A stretch of DNA of 46,686 nt, taken from the NCBI GenBank assembly GCA_002632265.1, contig NQOV01000004.1, forward strand, positions 1-46,686. The letters are read 5' to 3'. Position numbers and translations under genes: made by a program. Below the pieces are notes generated by a model. It worked only from the letters and a program-made list of their open reading frames with translations. It did no database searches and was not told the DNA's origin. Below, one piece after another: positions 3,993-46,458 of the stretch. Position 1 is the stretch's first letter. Every line of letters begins with the position of its first letter. The stretch comes from Rhodospirillaceae bacterium MC!. Lineage in GTDB: Bacteria; Pseudomonadota; Alphaproteobacteria; MC1.

Positions 3993-3996
3993 GCTT

Positions 3997-4041
3997 TATA
4001 GATAGTTACAGGCCTAAATATTAGGCCTGTAACTATCTATA
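3997..4041. repeat. GGCC-core palindrome, copy 1
   Basis: A perfect 21-bp stem with a 3-base loop (ATA). The core is GGCCTAAATATTAGGCC and the flanking arms are TATAGATAGTTACA and its complement. Four other palindromes in the window share the core but have different, still complementary, arms. It sits just upstream of the moaCB promoter. Confidence 0.85.
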
Positions 4042-4111
4042 GCATAGGATAAAGAAAAATGCTCAAGCCCCCACGATATTCATGGGCTGTTTTTACCCCC
4101 TACACAAGATT

Positions 4112-4218
4112 TAAGGACGAGAAAAATAGTCAGTAGGCTCTTTAAGGCAATGCGTGGTGTATATACCACTACATAAGCATTGACTTAAAGAGCCTAATGG
4201 CTGTTTTTATCGTTCTTA
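4112..4218. repeat. Long stop-adjacent hairpin (variant F1)
   Basis: About 107 bases fold into one long stem. The outer 30 bp pair almost completely, with three G-T wobbles and two mismatches. An inner arm (CTTTAAGGCAATGC / GCATTGACTTAAAG) carries an apical loop that begins GTGGTGTATA and ends CTACATAA. The last arm bases include the moaA stop codon. Loop ends and architecture match the copies at 7.6, 12.0-12.3, 15.9, 21.3 and 24.7 kb. It probably also terminates moaA transcription. Confidence 0.8.
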
Positions 4219-5190
4219 ACCGCCAATTTTTGAGAGATTATCGCAAGCTCCGACAAAATTCTCATCTAAATGGTGGGATTTGGGTTTGCTGATTAGGAGG
4301 GTTTCGATTTCGGCTTTTAGTTCTTCTTTTTTCTCGAGCGTTAACAGATGACGTAGGGGGATTCTTTTTTTGCCGAATAGACACAATAATATTTCGCCTA
4401 GTGATGAGAATCTTATGCGGTTACAGGTTGAGCAGAAGTCTTGGGCGTAGGGGGTTATAAAGCCAATTTTTCCTAGATTATCTTGATGTTTGAAAGTTTG
4501 GGCTGGGCCTTTTAGTTTGGGGTCTTCTGAATTGTCTAATGTCCAGCCTTTGGCTTTTAGGTCTTCTATTATTGTTTCGGCGGTTAGTTGGCGTTTGTTT
4601 AGATAATCTACGGTACAGGTGTTATTTTGCATTAGTTCTATGAAGCGAATCGTTACTTTGTGGGTGTTGGCAAAGGAGATGAAATCGTCCATATCTTGTG
4701 TATTTATACCTTGCAGGATAACGGCGTTAATTTTTATGTTGAAACCTAAATGGATAGCATGTTTAATGCCTGCTATGATTTTATCTAAAATATCGACTTT
4801 GGTAATTTCGAAGAATTTTTTAGGATCTAGGCTATCTATTGATACGTTGATATTTCGCAAGCCTGCTTTATACCATTCTTCGGCTTTGGCTAATAAATTA
4901 AAGCCGTTTGTTGTTAAGCCACAACTTTCGAATTTATATTTGTGGTTTGTAATTTCTAATACTTTTGTTAGATCCTTAAACAAAGCGGGTTCGCCACCGC
5001 TAAATCTGATTTTTTTCACTCCTAATTCCTTTAGGGTGGCTAATAAGATATCTAGCTCATTAACCGATAAGGTATCCTTTAACTTTTTATCCCAACCACC
5101 TGGCAGACAGTACTCACAACTAAAGTTACATTTTTCAGTTAATGAAATTCTAACATAAGTAATGTTTCTTTTTAGATAATCTTGTAACAT
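4216..5190 (-). CDS. moaA: GTP 3',8-cyclase MoaA (radical SAM)
   Basis: MoaA catalyses the first step of molybdenum-cofactor synthesis, radical rearrangement of GTP to 3',8-cyclo-GTP. The 324-residue protein has the radical-SAM cluster CNFSCEYC (Cys-x3-Cys-x2-Cys, about residues 21-28), RFSGGEPALF for SAM binding, and the second [4Fe-4S] cluster ligands FCSTCNRIRF plus a downstream Cys in LLCLFG. It ends in Gly-Gly, as expected for MoaA, where the C-terminal tail completes the active site. The ATG is preceded by AAGGAA on the minus strand. It follows the carrier-protein gene and is followed by a long hairpin at its stop codon. Confidence 0.95.
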   Translation of the reverse strand: MLQDYLKRNITYVRISLTEKCNFSCEYCLPGGWDKKLKDTLSVNELDILLATLKELGVKKIRFSGGEPALFKDLTKVLEITNHKYKFESCGLTTNGFNLLAKAEEWYKAGLRNINVSIDSLDPKKFFEITKVDILDKIIAGIKHAIHLGFNIKINAVILQGINTQDMDDFISFANTHKVTIRFIELMQNNTCTVDYLNKRQLTAETIIEDLKAKGWTLDNSEDPKLKGPAQTFKHQDNLGKIGFITPYAQDFCSTCNRIRFSSLGEILLCLFGKKRIPLRHLLTLEKKEELKAEIETLLISKPKSHHLDENFVGACDNLSKIGG

Positions 5191-7530: not shown

Positions 7531-7546
7531 TGTATCTTATGTTCTG

Positions 7547-7593
7547 TAGTTTATTATTGCTGGCCTAATATTTAGACCAGCAATAATAAACTA
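7547..7593. repeat. GGCC-core palindrome, copy 2
   Basis: A 17-bp perfect outer stem (TAGTTTATTATTGCTGG and its complement) capped by CCTAATATTTAGA. The core differs slightly from the others (one C-A mismatch). It lies between the convergent VOC and FAD-oxidoreductase genes. Confidence 0.75.
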
Positions 7594-7617
7594 TAATATA
7601 ATACAGAATCTCACACC

Positions 7618-7845
7618 ACTTCGATCCGCAGGATTGGAAGAAACTGGCTAAGATGTACCTTAAATCAGGGCGACGTGTACTCACATCTACATAAGCCCTA
7701 AGCTAAGGTGCAGATTAACCCACTTACCGCAATCTGTAGGATTGAGAGAAATGGGATAAGATGTGCTTGTAAGCGGTACGCCGTGTACTTAATGCCTAAA
7801 CTAGTACCGCTTACAAGTGCAGATTAGCCAATTTATCACGATCCC
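7618..7845. repeat. Two-copy array of the long hairpin element (H1-H2)
   Basis: Two units with period 108-109 bp. Each has a lower stem block (TAAGATGT.C paired to GTGCA.ATTA), a copy-specific middle arm and an apical loop beginning GACGTGTAC or GCCGTGTAC. In H1 the middle arm is ATCAGGGC, imperfectly paired. In H2 it is GTAAGCGGTAC, paired end to end. Units are joined by a small hairpin of the type GATCCgcaGGATT. The outermost arms (AAACTGGCTAA and TTAGCCAATTT) pair across the whole array. It ends at the stop codon of the FAD-oxidoreductase gene. Confidence 0.85.
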
Positions 7846-10104
7846 TTATTTAAGGCATATGCCGAATATGGCAGGCTTATTGCCCCATGTGTCATTTACT
7901 GTGATAGTTAATTCGCTAAAATTAATCGTACCTAAATTATGATGATTAACGGCTTGATGATTATCTTTAACACTTACAATAACTTCATTCTTTTCATTAG
8001 TGATAGTATAATCTTTTATGCAATATGAAAGGGCATGATATTTATGGTTTTTCCCTGTGGTTTCCATATTTTGACTGCTGTTGGTATCAAAGAACATTGT
8101 TAATATACCATTTTTTAGATTGATTTCCTTATCCCATTGGATTTTTAGTTGCGAATCATGTTTATTCTTACCAACCCAAGCATTACTTGAGATTACTGGT
8201 CTGTACTGTCCTTTTAGGATGTTTTCAGGTTGGAATATATTTTGCTCTTCTAGGAATTCAATGGCGATGTTAAACTCGTTAGGATGTCTCATAGCTTGCC
8301 AACGTTCGTATGATTGAGCTTTATCTTCCTTGTTAAAGAGTTCCATAACAGGATTGTAAACAGTTGTAACAGCGGTTAATAGTTCAGATGTGGAATTAAA
8401 TAAAATATCAGGATTTTCGCCTAAGGTAATATAGATATAGCAATTTTCATTCACGCTTGCGGTTGGCTTAATTATGATATCTTGCACGCCTGTTTCTAAG
8501 GCAACATCAAAGCTTTCTAGAGTAGTATGTGGCGTGAAATTATCTAGGCTTTCGGTTGTTCTGATTTGAATGTTAACATTATCCTTATTAAATGCTTTAA
8601 AGTTTAATTTAAAACTTGGAATCTTGCCTTTATTTACTGGGAATAAAAAAGCGTATGCTTTATCTAGACGTGTATAATCTTCGCTTTTTTGAGTAAATCC
8701 TTTAAATGGTAAAGTATCATTCGATGAAATTTTCGCTTGTGATACTAAATTATTTTCTAACGCTGGTAAAACATTAGGAATATAATGCCCTTTAGCAATA
8801 AGACGTTGTTGTAGTTCGTGTAAGTATTTATCTTCCAATATATCTTTAGGCTCAAGATTATATTCTACGCACATGGCGGTAGCCATTCCTGTAGCTTGAC
8901 CATTAACCGCTCCTGTAAGCATTAGGCGAGTAGTACCAAAAGCAATATGACTCACTGATATTAGACGTCCACCTAAGAATAAATTACTAATATTACGACT
9001 ATATAAACATCTGTAAGGAATGGCGTATACGCTTTTAGGATGCCAATGACTGGAAGACGGTAATTTACTATAAATCCCATCGGACGGATGTAAATCAATT
9101 GACCATCCACCATGGGCGATGTTATCCTTATGATGTTTTACTAATAAGACATCATCTTGAGTTAACATATAATCTCCGTAAAAGCGTCTGGCGTCTCTTT
9201 TACCTGGTAAAGCTCCTATCCAATCTAGAGTTTTATTTTTAGCTTCAGGGAATTTGCCAGAATTTTTAATGTGATCCCACGCACCATATACGACCTTTTT
9301 AAGCTCATATTTGATTTCTTCGGCGTCTCTAATGGTATCCAGTCGCCCACCGTATTCGAACCACCAGAAATGACAATCGCCCTCTTCTAATAATTTCATT
9401 TCCTTATATTTAGGCAATTTAGTTATATCTTTTAAGGCGAAATTCGGGGCAGTATATTTAACTTCTTGTCCCATATCTTTAATGGAAAACATTATGGAAT
9501 TACCTAAGCAATGGCCGTAAGCTTTATCACGTATAAGGCTTTCATTAAAATCTTCTTTGGTTTCTGGGGTGATTGTATGCTCGGCTCCTGATGTGTATCC
9601 CACAAGACCATCGCCTGACGAATCAGAAAAGAATTTGGATTTAAATGTGTAGAATGTTTCATTATTACTATTATAACCACTTACGGAAGTAATCTTATTC
9701 TTGCCGTCTGTTTCGCTTGAGTTTATGGATGTATTTAAAAATAATTGAATATTTTCTTCATCTAGAACCTTATCTAAAAGAAGAGCGTCGAATAAATAGG
9801 CGTTACCCTCGGCGTTTCTGTGAACATTTTCTGTGAGAATTTCATCGATCACACCGCCCTCACGACCCCAACGATTATTATTTCCCATTCCTGCGGTAGC
9901 CCCTAAGGCCCATACTCGGATCTCTGATGAGGCATTCCCACCGAGAACAGGTCGATCCTGTACTAAAGCCACTTTTAATCCCTCTCGTGCTGCCGTAATT
10001 GCCGTACAAATACCAGCCATACCGCCACCAACTACCGTATAATCACTTGTGATAGTAACTTCTTTTATTTTATTCTGATTATTATTGTTATTATTATTGT
10101 TCAT
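7846..10104 (-). CDS. FAD-dependent oxidoreductase (FAD_oxidored family)
   Basis: A 752-residue flavoprotein. After a low-complexity start (eight asparagines in a row from an AAT/AAC repeat), residues about 17-60 form the dinucleotide-binding fold (TVVGGGMAGICTAITAAREG ... QDRPVLGGNASSEIRV), typical of the FAD_oxidored family. SDSSGDGLVGYTSGAEH and the C-terminal half of the FAD domain (LFLGGRLISVSHIAFGTTR, then GAVNGQATGMATAMC) complete the cofactor site. Residues about 480-752 look like beta-rich accessory domains. No signal peptide is seen, so it is probably cytosolic. Relatives often sit in sugar or glycoside loci, and the neighbouring LacY-like permease supports a carbohydrate substrate, but the reaction is unknown. 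A terminator-like hairpin separates it from the permease gene. Confidence 0.85.
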   Translation of the reverse strand: MNNNNNNNNQNKIKEVTITSDYTVVGGGMAGICTAITAAREGLKVALVQDRPVLGGNASSEIRVWALGATAGMGNNNRWGREGGVIDEILTENVHRNAEGNAYLFDALLLDKVLDEENIQLFLNTSINSSETDGKNKITSVSGYNSNNETFYTFKSKFFSDSSGDGLVGYTSGAEHTITPETKEDFNESLIRDKAYGHCLGNSIMFSIKDMGQEVKYTAPNFALKDITKLPKYKEMKLLEEGDCHFWWFEYGGRLDTIRDAEEIKYELKKVVYGAWDHIKNSGKFPEAKNKTLDWIGALPGKRDARRFYGDYMLTQDDVLLVKHHKDNIAHGGWSIDLHPSDGIYSKLPSSSHWHPKSVYAIPYRCLYSRNISNLFLGGRLISVSHIAFGTTRLMLTGAVNGQATGMATAMCVEYNLEPKDILEDKYLHELQQRLIAKGHYIPNVLPALENNLVSQAKISSNDTLPFKGFTQKSEDYTRLDKAYAFLFPVNKGKIPSFKLNFKAFNKDNVNIQIRTTESLDNFTPHTTLESFDVALETGVQDIIIKPTASVNENCYIYITLGENPDILFNSTSELLTAVTTVYNPVMELFNKEDKAQSYERWQAMRHPNEFNIAIEFLEEQNIFQPENILKGQYRPVISSNAWVGKNKHDSQLKIQWDKEINLKNGILTMFFDTNSSQNMETTGKNHKYHALSYCIKDYTITNEKNEVIVSVKDNHQAVNHHNLGTINFSELTITVNDTWGNKPAIFGICLK

Positions 10105-12014: not shown

Positions 12015-12346
12015 CGATCCGCAGGATTGGGAGAAATTGGCTAAGATGTGCCTTAACTTAGAGCGACGTTTACTTAATGCCTACACTAGCTCTAAGGTAA
12101 GGTGCATATTAACCCACTTATGACGATCCGCAGGATTGGGAGAAATGGGATAAGATGTGCCTTAAATCAGGGCGTACATGTACATATGTTTACCTAAGCC
12201 CTGATTTAAGGTGCATATTAGCCCACTTATCACGATCCGCAGGATTGGGAGAAATTGGCTAAGATGTGCCTTAACTTAGAGCGACGTGTACTTAATGCCT
12301 ACACTAGCTCTAAGGTAAGGTGCATATTAGCCAATTTATCACAATC
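12015..12346. repeat. Three-copy array of the long hairpin element (H3-H5)
   Basis: Three units with an exact 109-bp period (GATCC marks at 12016, 12125 and 12234). Each unit contains GATCCGCAGGATTGGGAGAA, the lower-stem block TAAGATGTGCCTTAA, a variable middle arm, an apical loop and TTAAGGTGCATATTA. Middle arms are CTTAGAGC in H3 and H5 but ATCAGGGC in H4. H4 pairs perfectly, while H3 and H5 each have one mismatch. H4 also has a different loop (GTACATGTAC..TTTACCTAA). The first left arm (AAATTGGCTAA) pairs perfectly with the last right arm (TTAGCCAATTT) across the array. It ends at the lptE stop codon. Confidence 0.9.
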
Positions 12347-13252
12347 CTACTTATCGGTTACGTCTATTGGTAGGGGATATAATGTAATATCTTTTATGGT
12401 TTTTTCTTTGGCTTTTATGGCGTCCATGTCTTCGACTACTTTGGGTTTTATGACTTCTATTTGGTGTTCGTTATGATAAAGCCATGCTATAATATTGGTG
12501 TATATTTTACTACTTATGTAAATAAGAGCTTTTTCTTTTGCGTCTTTTTCGGCGAAAGTTAAGCCTGTTAGGGATCTGGAAAGTGTGTAGCTTGTTACGG
12601 CTTGGGATTTGGCGTTATAGACCACTTTACCAGTTTGGAAACTTTCTATTGAGTATGAGGCGTATAGCAAATACTTAAAGCGGTTGGGTACACCGTAGAT
12701 ATCTGAAGAGAATGAGCTTGTACTATCGCTTAAGCTAACTCTTAGCACATATTTATAATCGCCTATCGGTTTAACCGTATGTAATAGTTTATTTAATTCT
12801 CCACGTAAGAACCAACCTTGATAATCGGCAATGGATGCTATCCATACACGTTCGGAAGATAAGACGGTACTATTTTTTAACGGATTAAGTATTAAACGAT
12901 GATAAAAACTCTGATTATACTTTTTATTAAATTGATTATCGCCAACCGTATGAGTAACTTTACTTAGTTTTTCCTTTTGATATTTGGCAATGAAATTCTT
13001 ATAATAATTCACATAAGCAGGTTTTTGTTTTATATTATGGCGTGAGTGTTTGTTGTGAGATTTTACTTTAGATAATCTTCCAGAATTCTTATTTGCTCTA
13101 ACTAAATTTTGCGAATTCGAATCGTTTACAGACTGATAAAAGGATTTAATATTCGGTCTATCAGGATTATATAAGGATGAATAGCCACAACCACTTAAGA
13201 AAAATATAACAATTACCGAAGTAATATGAGATAATCTCGCACCGCCATTCAT
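12347..13252 (-). CDS. lptE: LptE-like LPS-assembly lipoprotein
   Basis: The 301-residue protein begins with a signal peptide and lipobox (IVIFFLSGCGYSSLY; lipidated Cys at about residue 22), the hallmark GCGY start of LptE. LptE plugs the outer-membrane LptD barrel during lipopolysaccharide export. The gene follows leuS with only one base between, the usual leuS-lptE order of alphaproteobacteria. The chain is longer than typical LptE (about 170-200 residues) because of a basic, Ser/Asn/Lys-rich insert (about residues 30-105) and a C-terminal extension. The core YGVPNRFKYLLYASYSIE and the SQAVTSYTLSRS region fit the family. holA, often next in this operon, is absent; a repeat array follows instead. 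Confidence 0.75.
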   Translation of the reverse strand: MNGGARLSHITSVIVIFFLSGCGYSSLYNPDRPNIKSFYQSVNDSNSQNLVRANKNSGRLSKVKSHNKHSRHNIKQKPAYVNYYKNFIAKYQKEKLSKVTHTVGDNQFNKKYNQSFYHRLILNPLKNSTVLSSERVWIASIADYQGWFLRGELNKLLHTVKPIGDYKYVLRVSLSDSTSSFSSDIYGVPNRFKYLLYASYSIESFQTGKVVYNAKSQAVTSYTLSRSLTGLTFAEKDAKEKALIYISSKIYTNIIAWLYHNEHQIEVIKPKVVEDMDAIKAKEKTIKDITLYPLPIDVTDK

Positions 13253-13253
13253 C

Positions 13254-15839
13254 TTAGTTAGCTACTATATTGACGATTCTTGCAGGTACTACAATAACCT
13301 TACGGATGGTTTTACCTGCGATATTATTTTTAATTTTCTCATCATCAAGGGCGATTTTTTCCAGATCTTCCTTAGATATATCCTTAGGAACTTCAAGAGT
13401 ATTACGCACTTTGCCATTTACTTGAATGGCTATGGTAACAGTATCATCAACTAGGAAATTTTTATCATATTCTATCCACGGCGTTTGAGATAGTTGAGTT
13501 TTCTTTTTAAAGAGAACTTCCCATATTTCTTCGGTAATGTGCGGAGTGATAGGATTTAGCAATCTTGTTACCGCTTCCATACCGAATTTGTAAACATATT
13601 GCGAATGATCATCATCAAGGCTCATGCTTGAAAGAGAGTTGGTTAATTCACGAATCCTTGCGATAATTTTATTATACTGGAATTGTGGCAATTCTTCTTC
13701 TACGGCGAAAATTGTTTTGTGAATTAAAGAATATATCTTTTTTGTTTCGCCTGTAAAGCTTGCCGAATCTTGATCTGCTATATTTTGGATGATATCTGAT
13801 TTTTCTTCAACCATACGCCATACACGATTTAAGAATCGCCAACAACCGTCGGCCCCTGATTCGGTCCATTCTAAATCACGATCAGGAGGGCTATCAGAAA
13901 CCACAAACATGCGTGCAGTATCAGCCCCATAAGAACGGATAATAAAATCAGGATCAACCACATTTTTCTTAGATTTTGACATCTTTTCCACACGTCCGAT
14001 AGTTACCTTTTTACGGGTTTTAGCGTGCTGATACGTGCCGTCATTTAACTTAATAACGTCATCAGGGAATACCCAATTGCCATCTTCATCCTTATAGGTT
14101 TCATGGCAGATCATACCTTGAGTTAACAGAGCCTTAAATGGTTCGAATGATTCCATGGAAGAATCAAGATAGCCACAATCACGCAAGGCAAGATTAAAGA
14201 ATCGAGCATATAATAAGTGCATTACCGCATGTTCTACACCACCGATGTAATGATCAACATTCATCCAATATTTAGCCTTATCTTGTGCGAATGCTTGCTC
14301 TTCGTTGCGTGGATCTAAATAGCGTAAGAAATACCAACTTGATTCGAAAAATGTATCAAAAGTATCGGTTTCACGGATAGCAGGTTTGCCACAGGTTGGG
14401 CAAGTTGTATGCTTCCAAGTGGGATGATTTTCCAGCGGATTCCCTGCACTTTTGAATTCCACATCATCGGGTAAAGTAATGGGCAGATCGCTTGAATTAA
14501 CAGGTACAGCCCCATGCTCATCACAATACACTATCGGCACAGGACAACCCCAATAACGCTGACGTGATACTCCCCAATCGTGTAAGCGATAGTTGGTTTC
14601 ACGTCTGCCGATTTTATGTTCTTCCATGTAAGTCATCATTTTCTCTTTTGCTTCGACTACCGTTAAGCCGTTTAAGAATTGAGAATTAAAATGAACAGAT
14701 TCGTAAGTTGTGTAAGCTTCATCATTGATCTTGAAATCGTCGCCTTTATAATCTAGCGGTTTAACCACTTCGATAATTGGCAATTTATATTTAGTTGCGA
14801 ATTCAAAATCTCGTTGATCGTGGGCAGGCACGCCGTAAACTGCTCCTGTACCGTATCCCATAAGGACAAAATTAGCCACATAAATGGGCAGGAGATCGCC
14901 TGTGATATGATGTTTTACTCTTAAACCTGTATCAACGCCCTTTTTCTCGGCTTTGGCTACGGCTTCTTCTGATGTGTCTGTCTGGTTGCATTCTTCGATG
15001 AATTTTGCTAGATCCTTGTTATCTTTTGCCAGATCTAAAGCGATTGCATGATTGGGCGAAATACCAATAAAAGACGCCCCGAAAAACGTATCAGGACGAG
15101 TCGTGAAGATTTCCACAACTTGATCGGAATTATCCACAGGAAAAACAATTGTCATTCCTTGAGATTTACCTATCCAGTTATTCTGCATGGTGCGAACTTT
15201 TTCCGGCCAGTCGGTAATTTCCTTTAAGCCTGCGATAAGCTCTTCGGAATAATCGGTGATTTTTAAGAACCATTGATTTAATTTCTTTAATTCGACCACT
15301 GCCCCACTACGCCAGCCTTTACCGTCTACCACTTGTTCGTTAGCTAGTACGGTATTTTCCACAGGATCCCAATTCACAAGGGATTCTTTTCTATAGGCTA
15401 AGCCTTTTTTTAGGAAATCAATGAACATTTGCTGTTCGTGCTTGAAGTATTTGGGATGACAAGTGGCAATTTCACGATCCCAATCGTAACTCATACCTAA
15501 ACTTTTAATTTGTTGACGCATGAAATCGATATTTTCATAGGTCCATTTACCAGGGTGGGTATCGTGTTGCATTGCGGCATTTTCCGCAGGCAAGCCGAAC
15601 GAATCCCAACCCATGGGGTGCATAACATTAAAGCCCTTTTGTTTTTTATAGCGAGATAAAACATCGCCTAAAGTATAATTACGCACATGTCCCATATGCA
15701 ACTTACCTGACGGATAAGGCAACATTTCCAATACATAGGATTTGGGTTTTGCTTGGTCAACTTCCACTTTAAAAGTGTGTTCAGATTCCCATTTTGATTG
15801 CCACTTTTTTTCTACTTCATTAAAATTATGACGAGACAT
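13254..15839 (-). CDS. leuS: Leucyl-tRNA synthetase
   Basis: An 861-residue class I aminoacyl-tRNA synthetase that charges tRNA-Leu. HMGH at residues 48-51 and KMSKSKKNVVDPD near residue 620 form the ATP-binding signatures. The CP1 editing domain is present (TTRPDTFFGASFIGISPNH and GTGAVYGVPAHDQRDFEFA), as are the zinc-domain cysteines (CPTCGKP), ETDTFDTFFESSWYFLRY and the C-terminal tRNA-binding domain (VQVNGKVRN type). Length is normal. It heads the leuS-lptE unit. Between it and the DUF3576 gene lies hairpin H6. Confidence 0.97.
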   Translation of the reverse strand: MSRHNFNEVEKKWQSKWESEHTFKVEVDQAKPKSYVLEMLPYPSGKLHMGHVRNYTLGDVLSRYKKQKGFNVMHPMGWDSFGLPAENAAMQHDTHPGKWTYENIDFMRQQIKSLGMSYDWDREIATCHPKYFKHEQQMFIDFLKKGLAYRKESLVNWDPVENTVLANEQVVDGKGWRSGAVVELKKLNQWFLKITDYSEELIAGLKEITDWPEKVRTMQNNWIGKSQGMTIVFPVDNSDQVVEIFTTRPDTFFGASFIGISPNHAIALDLAKDNKDLAKFIEECNQTDTSEEAVAKAEKKGVDTGLRVKHHITGDLLPIYVANFVLMGYGTGAVYGVPAHDQRDFEFATKYKLPIIEVVKPLDYKGDDFKINDEAYTTYESVHFNSQFLNGLTVVEAKEKMMTYMEEHKIGRRETNYRLHDWGVSRQRYWGCPVPIVYCDEHGAVPVNSSDLPITLPDDVEFKSAGNPLENHPTWKHTTCPTCGKPAIRETDTFDTFFESSWYFLRYLDPRNEEQAFAQDKAKYWMNVDHYIGGVEHAVMHLLYARFFNLALRDCGYLDSSMESFEPFKALLTQGMICHETYKDEDGNWVFPDDVIKLNDGTYQHAKTRKKVTIGRVEKMSKSKKNVVDPDFIIRSYGADTARMFVVSDSPPDRDLEWTESGADGCWRFLNRVWRMVEEKSDIIQNIADQDSASFTGETKKIYSLIHKTIFAVEEELPQFQYNKIIARIRELTNSLSSMSLDDDHSQYVYKFGMEAVTRLLNPITPHITEEIWEVLFKKKTQLSQTPWIEYDKNFLVDDTVTIAIQVNGKVRNTLEVPKDISKEDLEKIALDDEKIKNNIAGKTIRKVIVVPARIVNIVAN

Positions 15840-15905
15840 TTATATTATTCCTTAATTATGATTGTATTTGTGATTCTAATTGTGTTTATATTTATACTTA
15901 TATTT

Positions 15906-16012
15906 TTAGGGTGGGAAAAATTAGTTAAGATGTGCCTTAAAGCATAGCGACATGTACTCTTGTTTACCTTAACTATGCTTTAAGGTGCATATTAGCTAAT
16001 TTTCAGCCCTAA
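15906..16012. repeat. Long stop-adjacent hairpin (H6)
   Basis: A 107-base element beginning TTAGGG and ending CCCTAA. Outer arms AAAAATTAG / CTAATTTT are shared with the short hairpin at 1605-1640. Inside lie the conserved block TTAAGATGTGCC paired to GGTGCATATTAG, a perfectly paired copy-specific arm (TTAAAGCATAG / CTATGCTTTAA) and a loop beginning CGACATGTAC and ending TTTACCTTAA. The right arm runs through the stop codon of the DUF3576 gene. Confidence 0.88.
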
Positions 16013-16599
16013 TGGGTATCCACGTAATATTTTTTCAGCTGTCTTGCACGTAGAAGAATCACATCGTTAAGCTGGGCACTTGCCAATTTATCGGGTTTAA
16101 TAACGCCTTTATTTTTCTTAAAGACAACCACACGCAAGGATTCTGCCTTTAAAGGCGAACCTAAAATATAAACATTAATTTGTACAGTACCGTAACCGCT
16201 CATATCGTACCATTTAGTAGTAATCACACCTGATTCAGGTAAGATCTTATCAAGGGGCATGATCTGTAAACTATCTAAAACCGCACGCCATAGCCACACA
16301 TTCACACGTAAGACATTATCAGACGGCGAAGAAGATAAGAATCCTGTACTTTTCTTATGTTCAGCAAGAAACTTTTTACGTTCTTTGGGAGTCATATCGT
16401 TGAGTTTACTAAAAAGATCCTTCTCGCTTTTTGTAAATAATTCTTTCTTTTTGCCGATAGCAGTATCAGGATTATAGATCCCTTCCACTTCTTCGCCACT
16501 GGCGTGGGATGCGGTTGTTGTTGGTACATTACTCTCGGCACAAGCTACAAGAGTTAAAAATGATAAAGAAAACACTAATGGTTTTATATATTTATTCAC
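16009..16599 (-). CDS. DUF3576 family lipoprotein
   Basis: A 196-residue predicted lipoprotein with signal peptide and lipobox (SLSFLTLVACAES). The C-terminal two thirds match DUF3576, a family found next to leuS in alphaproteobacteria: RVNVWLWRAVLDSLQIMPL, VITTKWYD, VQINVYILGSPLKAESLRVVVFK and NDVILLRARQLKKYY. Its function is unknown; the conserved neighbourhood with leuS and lptE hints at cell-envelope assembly. I start at GTG 16599 (followed by NKYIKPLV). A clear promoter (-10 at 16648-16643) overlaps the upstream ATGs at 16674 and 16644, so neither could be on the transcript, and AGG lies upstream of the GTG. Confidence 0.85.
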   Translation of the reverse strand: MNKYIKPLVFSLSFLTLVACAESNVPTTTASHASGEEVEGIYNPDTAIGKKKELFTKSEKDLFSKLNDMTPKERKKFLAEHKKSTGFLSSSPSDNVLRVNVWLWRAVLDSLQIMPLDKILPESGVITTKWYDMSGYGTVQINVYILGSPLKAESLRVVVFKKNKGVIKPDKLASAQLNDVILLRARQLKKYYVDTH

Positions 16600-16642
16600 A
16601 AAAACACCTAACTTTCGTATAAATTCATTTAAATAATAAAAC

Positions 16643-16671
16643 ATTATAATATAGATCTCATTTTTTTTCAA
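16643..16671 (-). promoter_or_regulatory. Sigma70 promoter for the DUF3576 gene
   Basis: On the minus strand, TTGAAA (16671-16666), a 17-base spacer and a perfect TATAAT (16648-16643). Predicted transcription start is near 16636, which decides the downstream GTG start at 16599. Confidence 0.8.
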
Positions 16672-16809
16672 CATTTTTTTAATTTAATTTCACAACTCTT
16701 ATAATGAAGATTTATATACTACATTTGATAAATGCTATTTCACATGATTATAAGAAAATACCATTTATTAATATTCTTAAACTTTAGTGGCTAGAAAATC
16801 GCCACTAAC

Positions 16810-20979: not shown

Positions 20980-21306
20980 TATGTTTCTCCGTTATGATAT
21001 TTCATATTTAAAAGTGTAAAGATCTAATTAAAACAAATACTTAGGATTTGTTTTAGATAAAAATTTTTTGACCTCAAAGATCGTAAAAAATTTTTGTGCT
21101 TTGTTTAACAGTATTCGGCTTCGTAGCTCGTTTGTTAAACTTCCCTATAATAACCATAAGCCAACCCTAAAAGCAAATATATTTTTAAACTATTTTACAT
21201 CTTATTGTAATAGTTATATATTTTTTAGAAAAAAGAATAAATATAAATAATGATTCGCTTTTCATTATTAAGATTCTCTTAATAATTTACGAATCCCAAA
21301 CCCAAA
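20980..21306. other. Non-coding region with inverted repeats upstream of the AspRS-like gene
   Basis: No gene is supported. AAAAATTTTTT (21059-21069) pairs perfectly with 21085-21095, and GTTTAACA (21103-21110) pairs with TGTTAAAC (21133-21140). Three GANTC sites lie at 21252-21295. The promoter of the AspRS-like gene should be at the left end. Confidence 0.5.
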
Positions 21307-21408
21307 GGGTGTGAAAAAGTGCTTATCCAAGGTTCTTAAGGCATACGGGGTGTATACCCCATACATAAGTATGCCTTAAGGGCTTTGGATGAGTGCTTTT
21401 TCACACCC
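21307..21408. repeat. Long hairpin variant F2
   Basis: A 102-base, almost fully paired stem: outer arms GGGTGTGAAAAAGTGC and GTGCTTTTTCACACCC, and an inner perfect arm CTTAAGGCATAC / GTATGCCTTAAG. The loop begins GGGGTGTATA and ends CATACATAA. Unlike the other copies it does not touch a stop codon; it lies about 100 bases before addB. Confidence 0.85.
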
Positions 21409-21436
21409 CTTGAAAATAATTTTCTCAAAAAAGTTC

Positions 21437-21465
21437 TTGTTCTCTTTTTGTTTTTATGATAATAT
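21437..21465 (+). promoter_or_regulatory. Probable addB promoter
   Basis: TTGTTC (21437-21442), 17-base spacer, TAATAT (21460-21465), about 47 bases before the addB ATG. This placement supports the start at 21512 over the upstream ATG at 21389. Confidence 0.5.
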
Positions 21466-21511
21466 AACTATAATTCACAAGAATCAAGCACTCAAAAGAG
21501 AGAAAAGTATA

Positions 21512-24500
21512 ATGAGTATTTACAATATTTCAGCAAGTTACGATTTTTCCGATGTCCTAGCCAAGCACATTTTAAAGGATTCGGATATCCATAACAGTAT
21601 TATTTTTCTTCCGACTAAGCGTGCTATCCGTACCATGCAAGAAGCATTCTTACGCTTATCGGACGGTAAACCCCTGTTATTGCCAAGACTAATTGCCCTA
21701 GGAGATCCTGATGATACCTCGATTCTCATTGATCAACTTACAGATCATGATGATTCGCTTTTAACTCTCAAGCCTGCCATTAGTAATAAGTTGCGTCTCC
21801 TACATTTTACGCAATTTGTGCGAAGATTATACGAAAATTTAAAGCGTCCTGCCCCAACCATGACGGTACTTAAGCAATCCCAAGAATTATCGACCTTTCT
21901 CGATACGGCTCAACGCTTTGAAGTGGATCTTAGTAAACTCGAAAAATTAGTGCCAGAAGAATATTCCAAACATTGGAATGAGAATCTCGCCTTTTTAAAG
22001 ATCATCAGCCACTCATGGCAAGATTTCCTTAAGGATATGGATTTGCTTGATCCTGTAGATCGTTGGGTGCGAATCATCAATTCCATATGCAGATATTGGC
22101 AAGAACATCCGCCTAAACAAAAAATATACATAGCAGGTTATAGCGGTTCTGTTCCTGCCATGGCTAGATTACTTAAGACCATCAGCGAAAACGAAAATGG
22201 TTGCGTGATCTTGCCTGATCTTGACACGAATCCCTATTTACAAGCGGAATATGATATGGGAAATCTAAGGGAAACACATCCGCAATATTCCTTATATAAG
22301 CTGTGCGATCAAATGGGAATCCTACCCAGATCCATCGAAGAATTACCAGGGGATCATATACAAAATAATAAGATATTACCAATCATAGTCCGCTCGGCAT
22401 TTGCTCCCAATGGAGTATCTTACGCCGAAGAGTATGAAAAACTAGCACATACAAAAGCCACCACGATCCATACTGCCACTTTAAATAGTGAGCAGGAAGA
22501 GGCCTTATATATTGCTGGCGTCATGCGTAAGATAGCCGAAAAAGATAGCACCACATGCACCCTAGTTACTCCCAACCGCAAGCAAGCCCAAAGGGTTAAA
22601 GCCGAGCTTAAACGTTGGGATATTCAAGTGGATGATTCCGCAGGTTCGCAATTGATACACACAGCAAAAGGCGTATTAGTTAACAGTATCTTAGAAGTAT
22701 TCTTTAAGGATTTTAATGCGGTAAATGTTCTTTCCATGTTAAAACATAATCTATGTTGGCACGCTTGGGCAGATAAGCAAAAATCCGTTGATATCCTAGA
22801 TATCGCCCTACGTGGTGTAGGAGCTAAAAAATCCCTGCATGAGCTGAAAAATAAGGCTCTACAGACTATCGGCAAGGATCAAGAAAACAATAGTAATTAC
22901 AAACATAATTTCCAACATTTAGGATCTAAAGAAGAAATACTCAAGCATATGGACAAGCTTTTTTCCCATATGGAACAAGCATTTGCCCCAATGTTTGCCA
23001 TAAGCACAGCCAATGAAGAACACTTCAATACTACTCTTGATTTTAATATCAGCGAAAAACTAACCGCCATAGTTCAAACAATCGAAAATATCGCCAACAG
23101 CGAACCATATGATAATGATAATCATGATAATAAAACCAATCCCGACAAAAAAGACGGCCATAAAAACATGTGGATAGATGATGACGGTGTTACCTGTGCC
23201 AACATGTTTACAGATCTCTTAAAACTAGCCGAAGAAAATAAGGATTATGAGCTATTTAAAGGGCAAAACATTTCACAAACCATATCTTTTTTCATGTCTA
23301 ACACTCAAGTACGAGCGAGCTTTTCCAATCATCCACGCTTGCACATTCTCGGCATGTTAGAATCACGTTTTCATCGTGCTGATGTGGTTATTATCGGCGA
23401 TATGAATGACGGCTCACTCCCACCAACGCCCACTCCTAGCCCATGGTTAAACAAAGCCATGTCAAGAGCCATAAACATGCCTGTTGATGATACTAAAGTC
23501 GGCGATTCTGCCCATGATTTCGCTTTCTCTATGGGGGCCGATAGTATATATCTCACACGCTCGGAAAAAGTCGACAATGCTAAATCTCTACTTTCCCCAT
23601 GGTGGTTAAAAATCAAAAATTATATAGATAATCAGAACAAACTACATAAAGACAAAAATAAGGCAATGGATATCACATTCGCCACAGATGATTTTAACAT
23701 CACTCATATAGATAAAGCAGAAAAGCTCATTCCAACCGTACCGCCACAACCTTTAGTACCTGTTAAGTATCGTCCGCAACACTTATCGGTAACAGGGATT
23801 GAAGCTTTAGTCCAAAATCCTTATTATATTTATGCTCGTAATATTTTAAAGTTACAAAAATTAGCCGATTTTAACGAGCAAGGCTCATACGCAGGTTACG
23901 GCAGTTGGATACATAAAATATTCGAAACATTCTCCTATAATCCCACCGCTAGCACAAGCGAAAATGTAGCAAGACTGGATCGCCTAGCACAAAAATACAT
24001 CCATGATTATACCAATGACGACATGGAAAAAATCATCTGGAATCATCGTTTTTCACGTACTAAATACGGCATGCACGCCCAAATCAGAGACAATTCTCAT
24101 GATTTCATCCATAGTTACAACGAAAAATACGGCATATATAACATAACCTTAGATAACAAAAGCACATTTACCCTAACAGGCATAGTCGATCGTCTTGATG
24201 TCATTGAAGTTGAGTATGATAATAACAACAAAAGCGAAGAAAAAATCCGTATTATTGATTATAAAACAGGTAAAGCCCCAACAAGACCCAAGGTGTTAAG
24301 CGGATTCTATCCACAATTGCCCCTACTTGCTCTCATCGCCCAAGAAGGCGGATACAGATCCCATAATGATAACACTCTAGACATTCAAAATATGCAAGCC
24401 CATAGCATGTGGTATTGGCAAGTGGAATCTTCAAACATCAAGCCTACATTTGTCCCCGCCAAACCCACCGCCAAGGAAGATAAAACCCATGACGAACTCA

Positions 24501-24664
24501 TAAGCGAATTGATCCTAAATACTAAATACTCCTTAAAGAAACTCTTAAACGATTTTACCAAAGAAGAAACCGTATACAACGCCCACCCCCACGGAATCGG
24601 CGAAAGCAAACGCACCGACTATGACCACTTGGCAAGAGTAGAACAATGGAGTAAAGAGCTATGA
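21512..24664 (+). CDS. addB: Double-strand break repair protein AddB
   Basis: A 1050-residue subunit of the AddAB helicase-nuclease, which processes double-strand ends for RecA loading. The N-terminal helicase-like part has IIFLPTKRAIRTMQEAFLR in place of a canonical Walker A, and later VVIIGDMNDGSLPPTPTPSPWLNKAM, characteristic of alphaproteobacterial AddB. The C-terminal RecB-like nuclease domain keeps IRIIDYKTGKAPTRP (Asp and Lys of the catalytic motif) about 100 residues from the end. ATG 21512 is preceded by GAGAGAAAAG; the frame is open to 21389 but the promoter argues against using that start. addA follows after hairpin H7. Confidence 0.92.
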   Translation: MSIYNISASYDFSDVLAKHILKDSDIHNSIIFLPTKRAIRTMQEAFLRLSDGKPLLLPRLIALGDPDDTSILIDQLTDHDDSLLTLKPAISNKLRLLHFTQFVRRLYENLKRPAPTMTVLKQSQELSTFLDTAQRFEVDLSKLEKLVPEEYSKHWNENLAFLKIISHSWQDFLKDMDLLDPVDRWVRIINSICRYWQEHPPKQKIYIAGYSGSVPAMARLLKTISENENGCVILPDLDTNPYLQAEYDMGNLRETHPQYSLYKLCDQMGILPRSIEELPGDHIQNNKILPIIVRSAFAPNGVSYAEEYEKLAHTKATTIHTATLNSEQEEALYIAGVMRKIAEKDSTTCTLVTPNRKQAQRVKAELKRWDIQVDDSAGSQLIHTAKGVLVNSILEVFFKDFNAVNVLSMLKHNLCWHAWADKQKSVDILDIALRGVGAKKSLHELKNKALQTIGKDQENNSNYKHNFQHLGSKEEILKHMDKLFSHMEQAFAPMFAISTANEEHFNTTLDFNISEKLTAIVQTIENIANSEPYDNDNHDNKTNPDKKDGHKNMWIDDDGVTCANMFTDLLKLAEENKDYELFKGQNISQTISFFMSNTQVRASFSNHPRLHILGMLESRFHRADVVIIGDMNDGSLPPTPTPSPWLNKAMSRAINMPVDDTKVGDSAHDFAFSMGADSIYLTRSEKVDNAKSLLSPWWLKIKNYIDNQNKLHKDKNKAMDITFATDDFNITHIDKAEKLIPTVPPQPLVPVKYRPQHLSVTGIEALVQNPYYIYARNILKLQKLADFNEQGSYAGYGSWIHKIFETFSYNPTASTSENVARLDRLAQKYIHDYTNDDMEKIIWNHRFSRTKYGMHAQIRDNSHDFIHSYNEKYGIYNITLDNKSTFTLTGIVDRLDVIEVEYDNNNKSEEKIRIIDYKTGKAPTRPKVLSGFYPQLPLLALIAQEGGYRSHNDNTLDIQNMQAHSMWYWQVESSNIKPTFVPAKPTAKEDKTHDELISELILNTKYSLKKLLNDFTKEETVYNAHPHGIGESKRTDYDHLARVEQWSKEL

Positions 24665-24665
24665 T

Positions 24666-24758
24666 AAATGGGCTAATATGCACCTTAAATTAAAATTAGG
24701 GCTAAGGTAAACTCATAGTACATGTACGCCCTAATTTAAAGCACATCTTAGCCCACTT
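24666..24758. repeat. Long stop-adjacent hairpin (H7), reverse orientation
   Basis: Starts one base after the addB stop codon. Read on the minus strand it has the family order: GGGCTAAGATGTGCTTTAA, arm ATTAGGGC, a loop beginning GTACATGTAC and ending GTTTACCTTA, the complementary arm, then AAGGTGCATATTAGCCC. It is inverted relative to the other copies, but so is addB, so orientation relative to the adjoining gene is the same. The right middle arm has a 3-4 base insertion. Confidence 0.85.
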
Positions 24759-24829
24759 CTCCCACTCCTTTAAGCCGAATCACAAGCAGAACTACAAGCG
24801 AATCACAACAGTAAGATCAAGAGAATCCC

Positions 24830-33339: not shown

Positions 33340-33394
33340 CTTAACAATCCCCCCCATACTCACGCCTAAACCTTACCAAACATTCGTACTTCTT

Positions 33395-33806
33395 TGTTTT
33401 GTTTTGTTTTGTTTTGTTTTGTTTGGTCTTGCTCGACAGACGGTCAATCTCTTCGGTTTGGTTTTACTCGACAGACGGTCGCTCTCTTCGGTTTGGTTTT
33501 ACTCGACAGACGGTCGCTCTCTTCGGTGTGGTGTGGCTCGACAGACAGTCAATCTCTTCGATGTGGTCTTGCTCGACAGACAGTCAATCTCTTCGATGTG
33601 GTTTTACTCGACAGACAGTCAATCTCTTCGGTGTGGTCTTACTCGACAGACGGTCGCTCTCTTCGGTGTGGTCTTGCTCGACAGACGGCCGCTCTCTTTG
33701 GTGTGGTCTTGCTCGACAGACGGTCGCTCTCTTCGGTGTGGTCTTGCTCGACAGACGGCCGCTCTCTTCGGTGTGGTCTTGCTTGGTAAACGGTCGCCAT
33801 GTGTAA
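33395..33806. repeat. Tandem array of 35-bp repeats with pentamer leader
   Basis: After a run of GTTTT pentamers (about 33395-33420), ten full units of 35 bases follow, with CTCGACAGA recurring exactly every 35 bases from 33432 to 33747, and then a degenerate unit at 33782. The core is CGACAGACGGTCGCTCT with single-base variants (GGTCGCT, GGCCGCT, AGTCAAT). Because 35 is not a multiple of three and the unit lacks stops, all three plus frames appear open; none has a ribosome site or protein-like composition. Confidence 0.9.
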
Positions 33807-33833
33807 CACTGTTGTGTTTTCTATTTGTATCTA

Positions 33834-33874
33834 TTTGTTTGTGCTGGCCTAATATATAGGCCAGCACAAACAAA
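33834..33874. repeat. GGCC-core palindrome, copy 3
   Basis: An 18-bp perfect stem: TTTGTTTGTGCTGGCCTA and its complement around the loop ATATA. It lies just after the 35-bp array and upstream of argR. Confidence 0.85.
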
Positions 33875-33901
33875 TTCAAATGATAAAAGCAAACAAAAAG
33901 A

Positions 33902-38778: not shown

Positions 38779-39354
38779 GTAATTTTTTCACAAACTAGCT
38801 AAGATACTGTTTATAAAAGAAAAAACCATTCTAAATCCCTTAAAGTCTCCACAAGTGGATTGTGGCATGTTCTAAATCATAATACTCATTTAGCTAAGAT
38901 ATTGTTTTTGTGTTATATATCTATAATTTAAGGCCTAAATATTAGGCCTTAAATTATAGGTACATTAATAAAAGAAAAAATCAAGTGCGAGATTAAGATT
39001 TAAAAAGGAGAGATATAATCAAGCACTTGAAGTATAAAATCAAACTGAAGGTATGAGAATCCAAAAATAATAAAAGGGATAAGAATATTTATGGAATAAA
39101 GGGATTAATGTATAAAATATATACTTCTCATACCTTGGAGTCAGTTTGACCATGTTCTAAATTAATATTATTGGGAGAAATATTAAATGGAATAGAACAT
39201 TATATAGTTATATATTATAAGGTTTAAAAGAATCTTAAGAAGAGATTTAGGATTGGTAAATGGCATTAATCTTGCATTAAGTTCTTGCTAAATCTTTATT
39301 AATGTGTTATCTTTATTTAATTGATTCTTATAACTTAATTACTATGAATGGGAT
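38779..39354. other. Structured non-coding region upstream of the DsbA-like gene
   Basis: No gene is visible in about 575 bases. Besides the GGCC palindrome there are three further stem-loops in a row: CAAGTGC/GCACTTG (38982-38988 with 39023-39029), a 20-base arm at 39040-39059 pairing with 39125-39149 (5-base bulge), and ATGTTCTA..TTAATATT pairing at 39152-39200. TAGCTAAGATA.TGTTT occurs twice (about 38806 and 38891). It could encode a small RNA or a long leader. Confidence 0.5.
38921..38959. repeat. GGCC-core palindrome, copy 4
   Basis: A perfect 18-bp stem: CTATAATTTAAGGCCTAA and its complement, loop ATA. It lies in the non-coding stretch between the tRNA operon and the DsbA-like gene. 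Confidence 0.85.
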
Positions 39355-41796: not shown

Positions 41797-41859
41797 GTTC
41801 TAAAGGATAGAATCTATCAAAGATAGAATCTAAAGGCTAGAATTTAAAGGCTAAAATCT

Positions 41860-41910
41860 AAAGGATGTGAGAAAGCACTCATATTATTTGAGCGATTTCT
41901 CACATCCTTT
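41860..41910 (+). terminator. Terminator of EIIB gene 2
   Basis: A perfect 15-bp stem (AAAGGATGTGAGAAA with its complement, 41860-41874 and 41896-41910). It is preceded by short repeats of TAGAATCTAAAGG. It resembles in form, but not in loop, the long stop-adjacent hairpins. Confidence 0.8.
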
Positions 41911-41960
41911 ATATTACATACTTTATACTTACAATTATCCCCATAAATAAAAAATACAAA

Positions 41961-46094: not shown

Positions 46095-46313
46095 TTAGAA
46101 ATCTTGCCAGACAGTCGCACTCTTTAGTTGGAGGTCTTGCCAGACGGTCGCTCTACTCGAGCAGAGGTCTTGACAGACGGTCGCTCTGCTCGGGCAGAGG
46201 TCTTAACAGACGGTTGCCCTACTCGGGCGGAGGTCTTGACAGACGGTTGCCCTACTCGGGCGGAAGTCTTAACAGACGGTTGCCCTACTCGGGCGGAAGT
46301 CTTGCCAGACGGG
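46095..46313. repeat. Tandem array of 33-bp repeats
   Basis: About seven units, with CTTGCCAGA/CTTGACAGA/CTTAACAGA recurring exactly every 33 bases from 46103 to 46301. The unit contains CCAGACGGTCGCTCT or ACAGACGGTTGCCCT followed by ACTCGGGCGGAGGT, so it shares its core with the 35-bp array at 33.4 kb but has a different second half. Because 33 is a multiple of three, both strands show open frames of Arg/Ser- or Thr/Ser-rich repeats, without ribosome sites. Confidence 0.88.
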
Positions 46314-46415: not shown

Positions 46416-46458
46416 ATATATAATTACTGGCCTATATATTAGGCCAGTAATTATATAT
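46416..46458. repeat. GGCC-core palindrome, copy 5
   Basis: A perfect 19-bp stem: ATATATAATTACTGGCCTA and its complement, loop TATAT. It follows the 33-bp array, just as copy 3 follows the 35-bp array. Confidence 0.85.

Follow-up and report, generated by a model that had tools for sequence, protein, structure and literature searches.

A stop-codon-adjacent family of hairpin repeats with long and short forms in a poorly known alphaproteobacterium

Several families of small palindromic repeats resemble the elements described here. Correia repeat enclosed elements exist in full and internally deleted forms of ~150 and 105 bp (PMC2649163), and PMC2229807 describes TA at the ends of Correia/NEMIS elements. 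The same source reports Rickettsia palindromic elements (RPEs) as 105-146 bp stem-loops present in many copies in an alphaproteobacterium, and RUP as an intergenic repeat of ~107 bp with ~100 copies and TA at its ends. RPEs are known for in-frame insertion within genes (PMC10969869), those of R. conorii carry CGTC at one end, and CGTC-type palindromic repeats have been found in alphaproteobacteria including Micavibrio (PMC3733652). Literature searches found no direct report of alphaproteobacterial palindromes that are anchored at stop codons.

The window analysed here (the whole stretch of 46,686 nt) is one entire contig of a 2.05 Mb assembly that is 95.5% complete and AT-rich (36% G+C). Two hairpins within it are copies of one undescribed gene-end repeat family of this poorly known alphaproteobacterium. 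The long hairpin (15906-16012, 107 nt) consists of TTAGGGTGGGAAAAATTAG, a central stretch that begins with T and holds the core, and CTAATTTTCAGCCCTAA; it overlaps the TAG stop codon (16009-16011) of a minus-strand DUF3576 gene (16009-16674), downstream of which lies leuS (13254-15839, minus strand). The short hairpin (1605-1640, 36 nt), composed of AAGGGTGGAAAAAATTAG followed directly by CTAATTTTTCACGCCCTT, possesses the same arms without the core and overlaps the TAA stop codon (1639-1641) of minus-strand moeA (1639-2898); all three genes were called from open reading frames and Pfam matches. A sequence-only reading had proposed that the hairpins share their outer arms, that both touch a minus-strand stop codon, and that the long one carries about 70 extra central bases. 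Reading both sequences bears out each of these points, the length difference being 71 nt and located centrally. Its description of the hairpins as terminators did not hold: a search for an intrinsic terminator (a GC-rich stem followed by a T-run) at the long and short hairpins found none, and sequence downstream of the elements at gene ends is not T-rich. Rfam searches identified only two tRNAs in the whole window, only microRNA-precursor models far under their cut-offs at 15850-16060, and nothing at six relative loci.

The long hairpin is an intact A-type copy, matched at 15905-16015 (105.7 bits) by a covariance model (R1) that we built from 27 copies. It pairs better on the plus strand, antisense to the DUF3576 gene, where the predicted RNA fold reaches -45.8 kcal/mol vs -36.7 kcal/mol on the minus strand. 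R1 gave 144 matches in the organism's own genome, corresponding to at least ~124 distinct places in 2.05 Mb once opposite-strand duplicates had been removed by hand count, a lower bound because the best 150 of 1504 candidates were scored. BLAST with the long copy as query found 64 matches, and a sister model for C-type copies (R2) found 123, a figure that also counts opposite-strand matches and A copies recognised by cross-matching. Both types have the outer arms and inner hairpin in common. The intact unit spans ~105-113 nt, with arms AAGG..GTGGGAAAAA / TTTTTCAC..CCTT, a stem of variable sequence but compensated pairing, and a conserved inner hairpin that reads GCTTATGTA...GTACACGTCGC on the gene's strand. 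Arm pairing runs over the full length of the element, which, like MITEs, has terminal inverted repeats. In the A1 alignment 97.8% of cells are paired and 19 of 35 pairs have changed on both sides; the covariation score of 0.351 compares with 0.127 for shuffles and at most 0.063 for slid structures, controls that do not amount to probabilities since the sequences are related. GCAC occurs as a direct repeat in both element halves of both subfamilies and in the G197 group described below; as a result, one strand has G-U pairs in tandem where its complement has A-C mismatches. A possible third subfamily of the same plan, with inner hairpins such as TACATGTATATGTACTACC, is seen at L050:6874, L067:18864, L073:788, L077:682 and 4111-4219 of the window.

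Further copies in the window also lie mostly at gene ends. On the plus strand, a tandem pair (7628-7847) and a tandem triplet (12021-12350) of A-type copies adjoin the stop codons of the genes at 7846-10104 and 12347-13252, respectively, and the C-like sister copy at 4111-4219 adjoins that of the gene at 4216-5190. A minus-strand A-type copy (24652-24771) meets the stop codon of a plus-strand gene (21389-24664). A C-type copy matched by R2 (21303-21413, plus strand) lies in a divergent context, of which there are few, and a short C-type form (41858-41911, minus strand) lies 62 nt from a stop codon. Also identified was a second palindrome family with a 17-bp conserved centre, GGCCTAAATATTAGGCC, and site-specific near-perfect arms of 12-27 bp (3996-4042, 7545-7595, 33833-33875, 38898-38982 and 46416-46458), which is not anchored at stop codons; at other sites (L063:7748, L047:16764) it takes a long form of ~130 nt whose ends are the same. 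The window further contains an array of at least 10 copies of a 35-bp tandem repeat (33354-33843) and a possibly coding 33-bp repeat array (GAGGTCTTGACAGACGGTCGC.., 46098-46310).

Statistics on the family were collected from 0.84 Mb of stretches, selected partly for holding copies, in which 84 element arrays were defined using simple ORF calls. In the fixed orientation, 49 of the 84 arrays lie within 4 nt of a stop codon, 59 within 8 nt and 70 within 30 nt, compared with 1, 1 and 2 in the opposite orientation and with means of 1.3, 1.9 and 4.7 (maxima 5, 5 and 12) upon random placement in intergenic gaps. The stop codon often falls within the first bases of the element on the gene's strand (TAAGG, TAGGA), and only one of 125 copies is inside a called ORF, itself short and uncertain. 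Read along that strand, many copies start with TAAGGAGTGTGA or a similar sequence, which is Shine-Dalgarno-like and overlaps the stop codon. Considered as a possible target site duplication, TA is common at the ends and flanks both sides of 29 of 61 solitary copies, the left TA belonging to the stop codon. Tandem arrays reach five copies. Non-Watson-Crick pairs on the gene-antisense strand are G-T rather than A-C (76:8 in A1, 94:10 in A2). Of 104 copies, 83 fold better on this strand when modelled as RNA, and 90 do so when modelled as DNA. With replication direction approximated by GC skew, abutting genes comprise 64 on the putative leading strand vs 7 on the lagging strand, compared with 384 vs 264 for all genes; this bias is provisional because skew is near zero in some stretches. 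Element orientation is also nearly uniform within each contig of the genome, where it follows not only gene direction but also GC skew.

The genomes compared as relatives share only the class with the source organism, and the nearest LeuS relatives found are ~56% identical. R1 had no match across 13 LeuS loci, and a search for the core pattern in genome contigs and viral contigs returned none. Across 384 other class members sampled, R1 matched only in G197, as did the inner motif pattern GCTTATGTA..GTACACG.CGC. Within the G197 group, copies were also identified in G385 and G386, along with one weaker copy each in G395 and G398, from another family. Copies in G386 (L178, L181) and G398 (L179) are oriented in the same way relative to the gene and start at a stop codon or no more than ~15 nt from one; that of G395 (L180) apparently does not. 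Orthologous gene ends were compared among three species of the related genus g172 (G197, G385 and G386), with gene names taken from our reading of the sequences and with L193 (G385, not a true orthologue) and L201 (66% identity, too distant) left out. The element is common to all three after rho, where the genes are 84-86% identical and the stems have changed yet remain paired, and after a glycosyltransferase-like gene, where one copy has diverged. An acc-like gene end carries it in two species, and mfd, lolA and ssrA carry it in G197 only; vacant orthologous gene ends have no arms. In the case of rho and ssrA, a separate terminator lies beyond the element, which itself follows the gene end. 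CGTC-type REP-like palindromes (GGCGACGTCGCTTCGCGCC) adjoin elements in G197 (L148, L146, L150).

In our reading the arms are part of the element, and the short forms are very probably intact copies that lost the core by internal deletion, rather than empty landing sites. Near-identical direct repeats, TTAGTTAA (15921-15928) and TTAGCTAA (15992-15999), lie 71 nt apart and bracket the core of the long copy; removal of one repeat plus the core leaves 107-71=36 nt, the length of the short form, in which TTAGCTAA (1619-1626) stands at the predicted deletion junction. We examined 16 short and intermediate forms of 37-78 nt in 0.84 Mb of the same genome; the moeA form is 41 nt here because a few adjacent bases were included. 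Each was fitted as a long copy from which a single internal segment is removed. Four hairpin-preserving (mirrored) shuffles served as control, and a quarter of the parents was used in scoring them. As deleted long copies, 15 of the 16 scored far above the shuffles, the weak case being L052:9288 (25 vs 20); the moeA form reached 28 of 41 vs at most 12. Deletions of 28-79 nt with varied end points form a graded series that extends to arms alone, and one-sided remnants of the core persist at L079:3677-3731, L044:15907-15974, L059:17439-17496 and L077:5883. The suggestion that the element is precisely lost from its hairpins is therefore supported, one form fitting weakly. Palindromes flanked by direct repeats are known to undergo replication slippage between those repeats. 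Slippage across the hairpin, between the repeats beside the core, could have removed the core, and is the most likely mechanism; in C-type copies AGTGCTT provides such a short direct repeat. Junctions are ambiguous by 5-9 nt in five forms and by 0-3 nt in the other 11, so slippage between perfect repeats does not account for all. Reversed orientation was more frequent among short forms (4/15 vs 3/66, Fisher p=0.02); we do not count this as evidence, as it was noticed post hoc and near-symmetric short forms cannot be oriented with certainty.

The converse proposal, that the ~70-nt core is a separate mobile unit entering the centre of short palindromes, with the short hairpin as an empty site, would also explain why removing the core from the long form yields the short one. 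Where the arm ends are palindromic, the core is bordered by direct repeats of 7-8 nt that could conceivably be a target duplication, and a mobile core making such duplications predicts the same pattern at these few loci. We nevertheless consider this improbable. Arm type and core type are linked, GTGC arms being usual for C-type cores and found with none of 75 A-type cores, though most clear short forms have GTGC arms. Most A copies show no target duplication since their flanks are inverted rather than direct repeats (TGGG..CCCA, GGTCG..CGACC). Intermediates retain one-sided core remnants, and vacant sites in g172 lack the arms that such a unit would enter. Arm-core linkage, inverted flanks, armless vacant sites and the element's position ahead of a separate terminator at rho and ssrA thus leave the earlier idea that it targets the centres of palindromic terminators unsupported. 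A chance likeness of two unrelated terminator hairpins might be entertained in an AT-rich genome with stem-rich gene ends, yet is very nearly negligible: neither hairpin has a T-run, the moeA form fits a deleted long copy, and a loose outer-arm pattern gave 12 short-centre matches vs 0 with the reversed control. Membership of both hairpins in one family refutes it. On the reading we prefer, internal deletion, the family provides a naturally occurring set of palindrome deletions whose junctions can be read.

At about even odds, we interpret the family as a non-autonomous mobile repeat: it may spread strand-specifically, be tolerated at the stop codon, a position that leaves the reading frame undisturbed, and decay by core deletion. 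Searches for a driver enzyme covered two families and found none in the genome, neither Y1 tyrosine transposase/RAYT (PF01797; 0 matches, with matches in five control genomes) nor DDE_3 (PF13358, IS630-like); with both absent, a RAYT or IS630-like driver is rejected. With regard to a parent transposase with matching ends, two arm pairs lie 2-4 kb apart. Somewhat less probable, and a rival to mobility rather than to internal deletion, is a functional 3'-untranslated (or antisense) RNA, in which a hairpin starting from the stop codon is kept by selection and short forms have decayed; on that account it might protect or process the mRNA end, or act on the terminating ribosome. Fixed position and orientation and strong covariation agree with such a function, which is a serious contender mainly because of the conserved rho copies, kept in three species with stems altered but paired. 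Conversely, the wobble bias towards the gene-antisense strand leaves the mRNA with poorer pairing, a function in the mRNA would not predict that putative lagging-strand genes are avoided, and tandem arrays and presence or absence between species are repeat-like. Neither mobility nor RNA selection accounts in detail for the exact placement at stop codons. Should the hairpin act at the mRNA end, it would represent a new alphaproteobacterial 3'-end element, located after genes such as rho in relatives; in either case the family motif can be searched for in further genomes.

Among known systems, the family resembles Correia/NEMIS elements of Neisseria in comprising short non-coding inverted repeats with many copies and full as well as internally deleted forms, and differs, when compared by description, in its stop-codon placement, fixed orientation, covarying stems and graded deletions down to arms. 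With RPEs it shares a long stem-loop, many copies and an alphaproteobacterial host; again by description, RPEs enter genes in frame, whereas the present elements begin at the stop codon and lie, all but one, outside called ORFs, and unlike RPEs of R. conorii they lack a consistent CGTC end. REP and the GTAG and CGTC repeats are likewise high-copy extragenic bacterial palindromes, but REPs measure 20-40 bp and are tagged at one end by GTAG or CGTC, whereas the present elements measure 105-113 nt and bear such tags at the ends of only a few among 108 long copies; REPs of the GTAG type are associated with the RAYT/Y1 transposase, for which this genome has no match. RUP and MITE-like repeats are similar in size, copy number, intergenic location and TA ends, but RUP is tied to an IS630 transposase, whose DDE_3 domain has no match here, and a fixed orientation to the gene, characteristic of the present family, is not mentioned for RUP in the available part of PMC2229807. 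It is possible, although we hold this tentatively, that these repeats constitute a new class of strand-specific hairpin elements in at least two, perhaps three, alphaproteobacterial families, placed or kept at stop codons in one orientation, mostly of leading-strand genes, with their spread or function dependent on the direction of transcription and replication. Among small palindromic repeats, which are themselves common, stop-codon anchoring, a single orientation and replication-strand bias are unusual features, and are testable.
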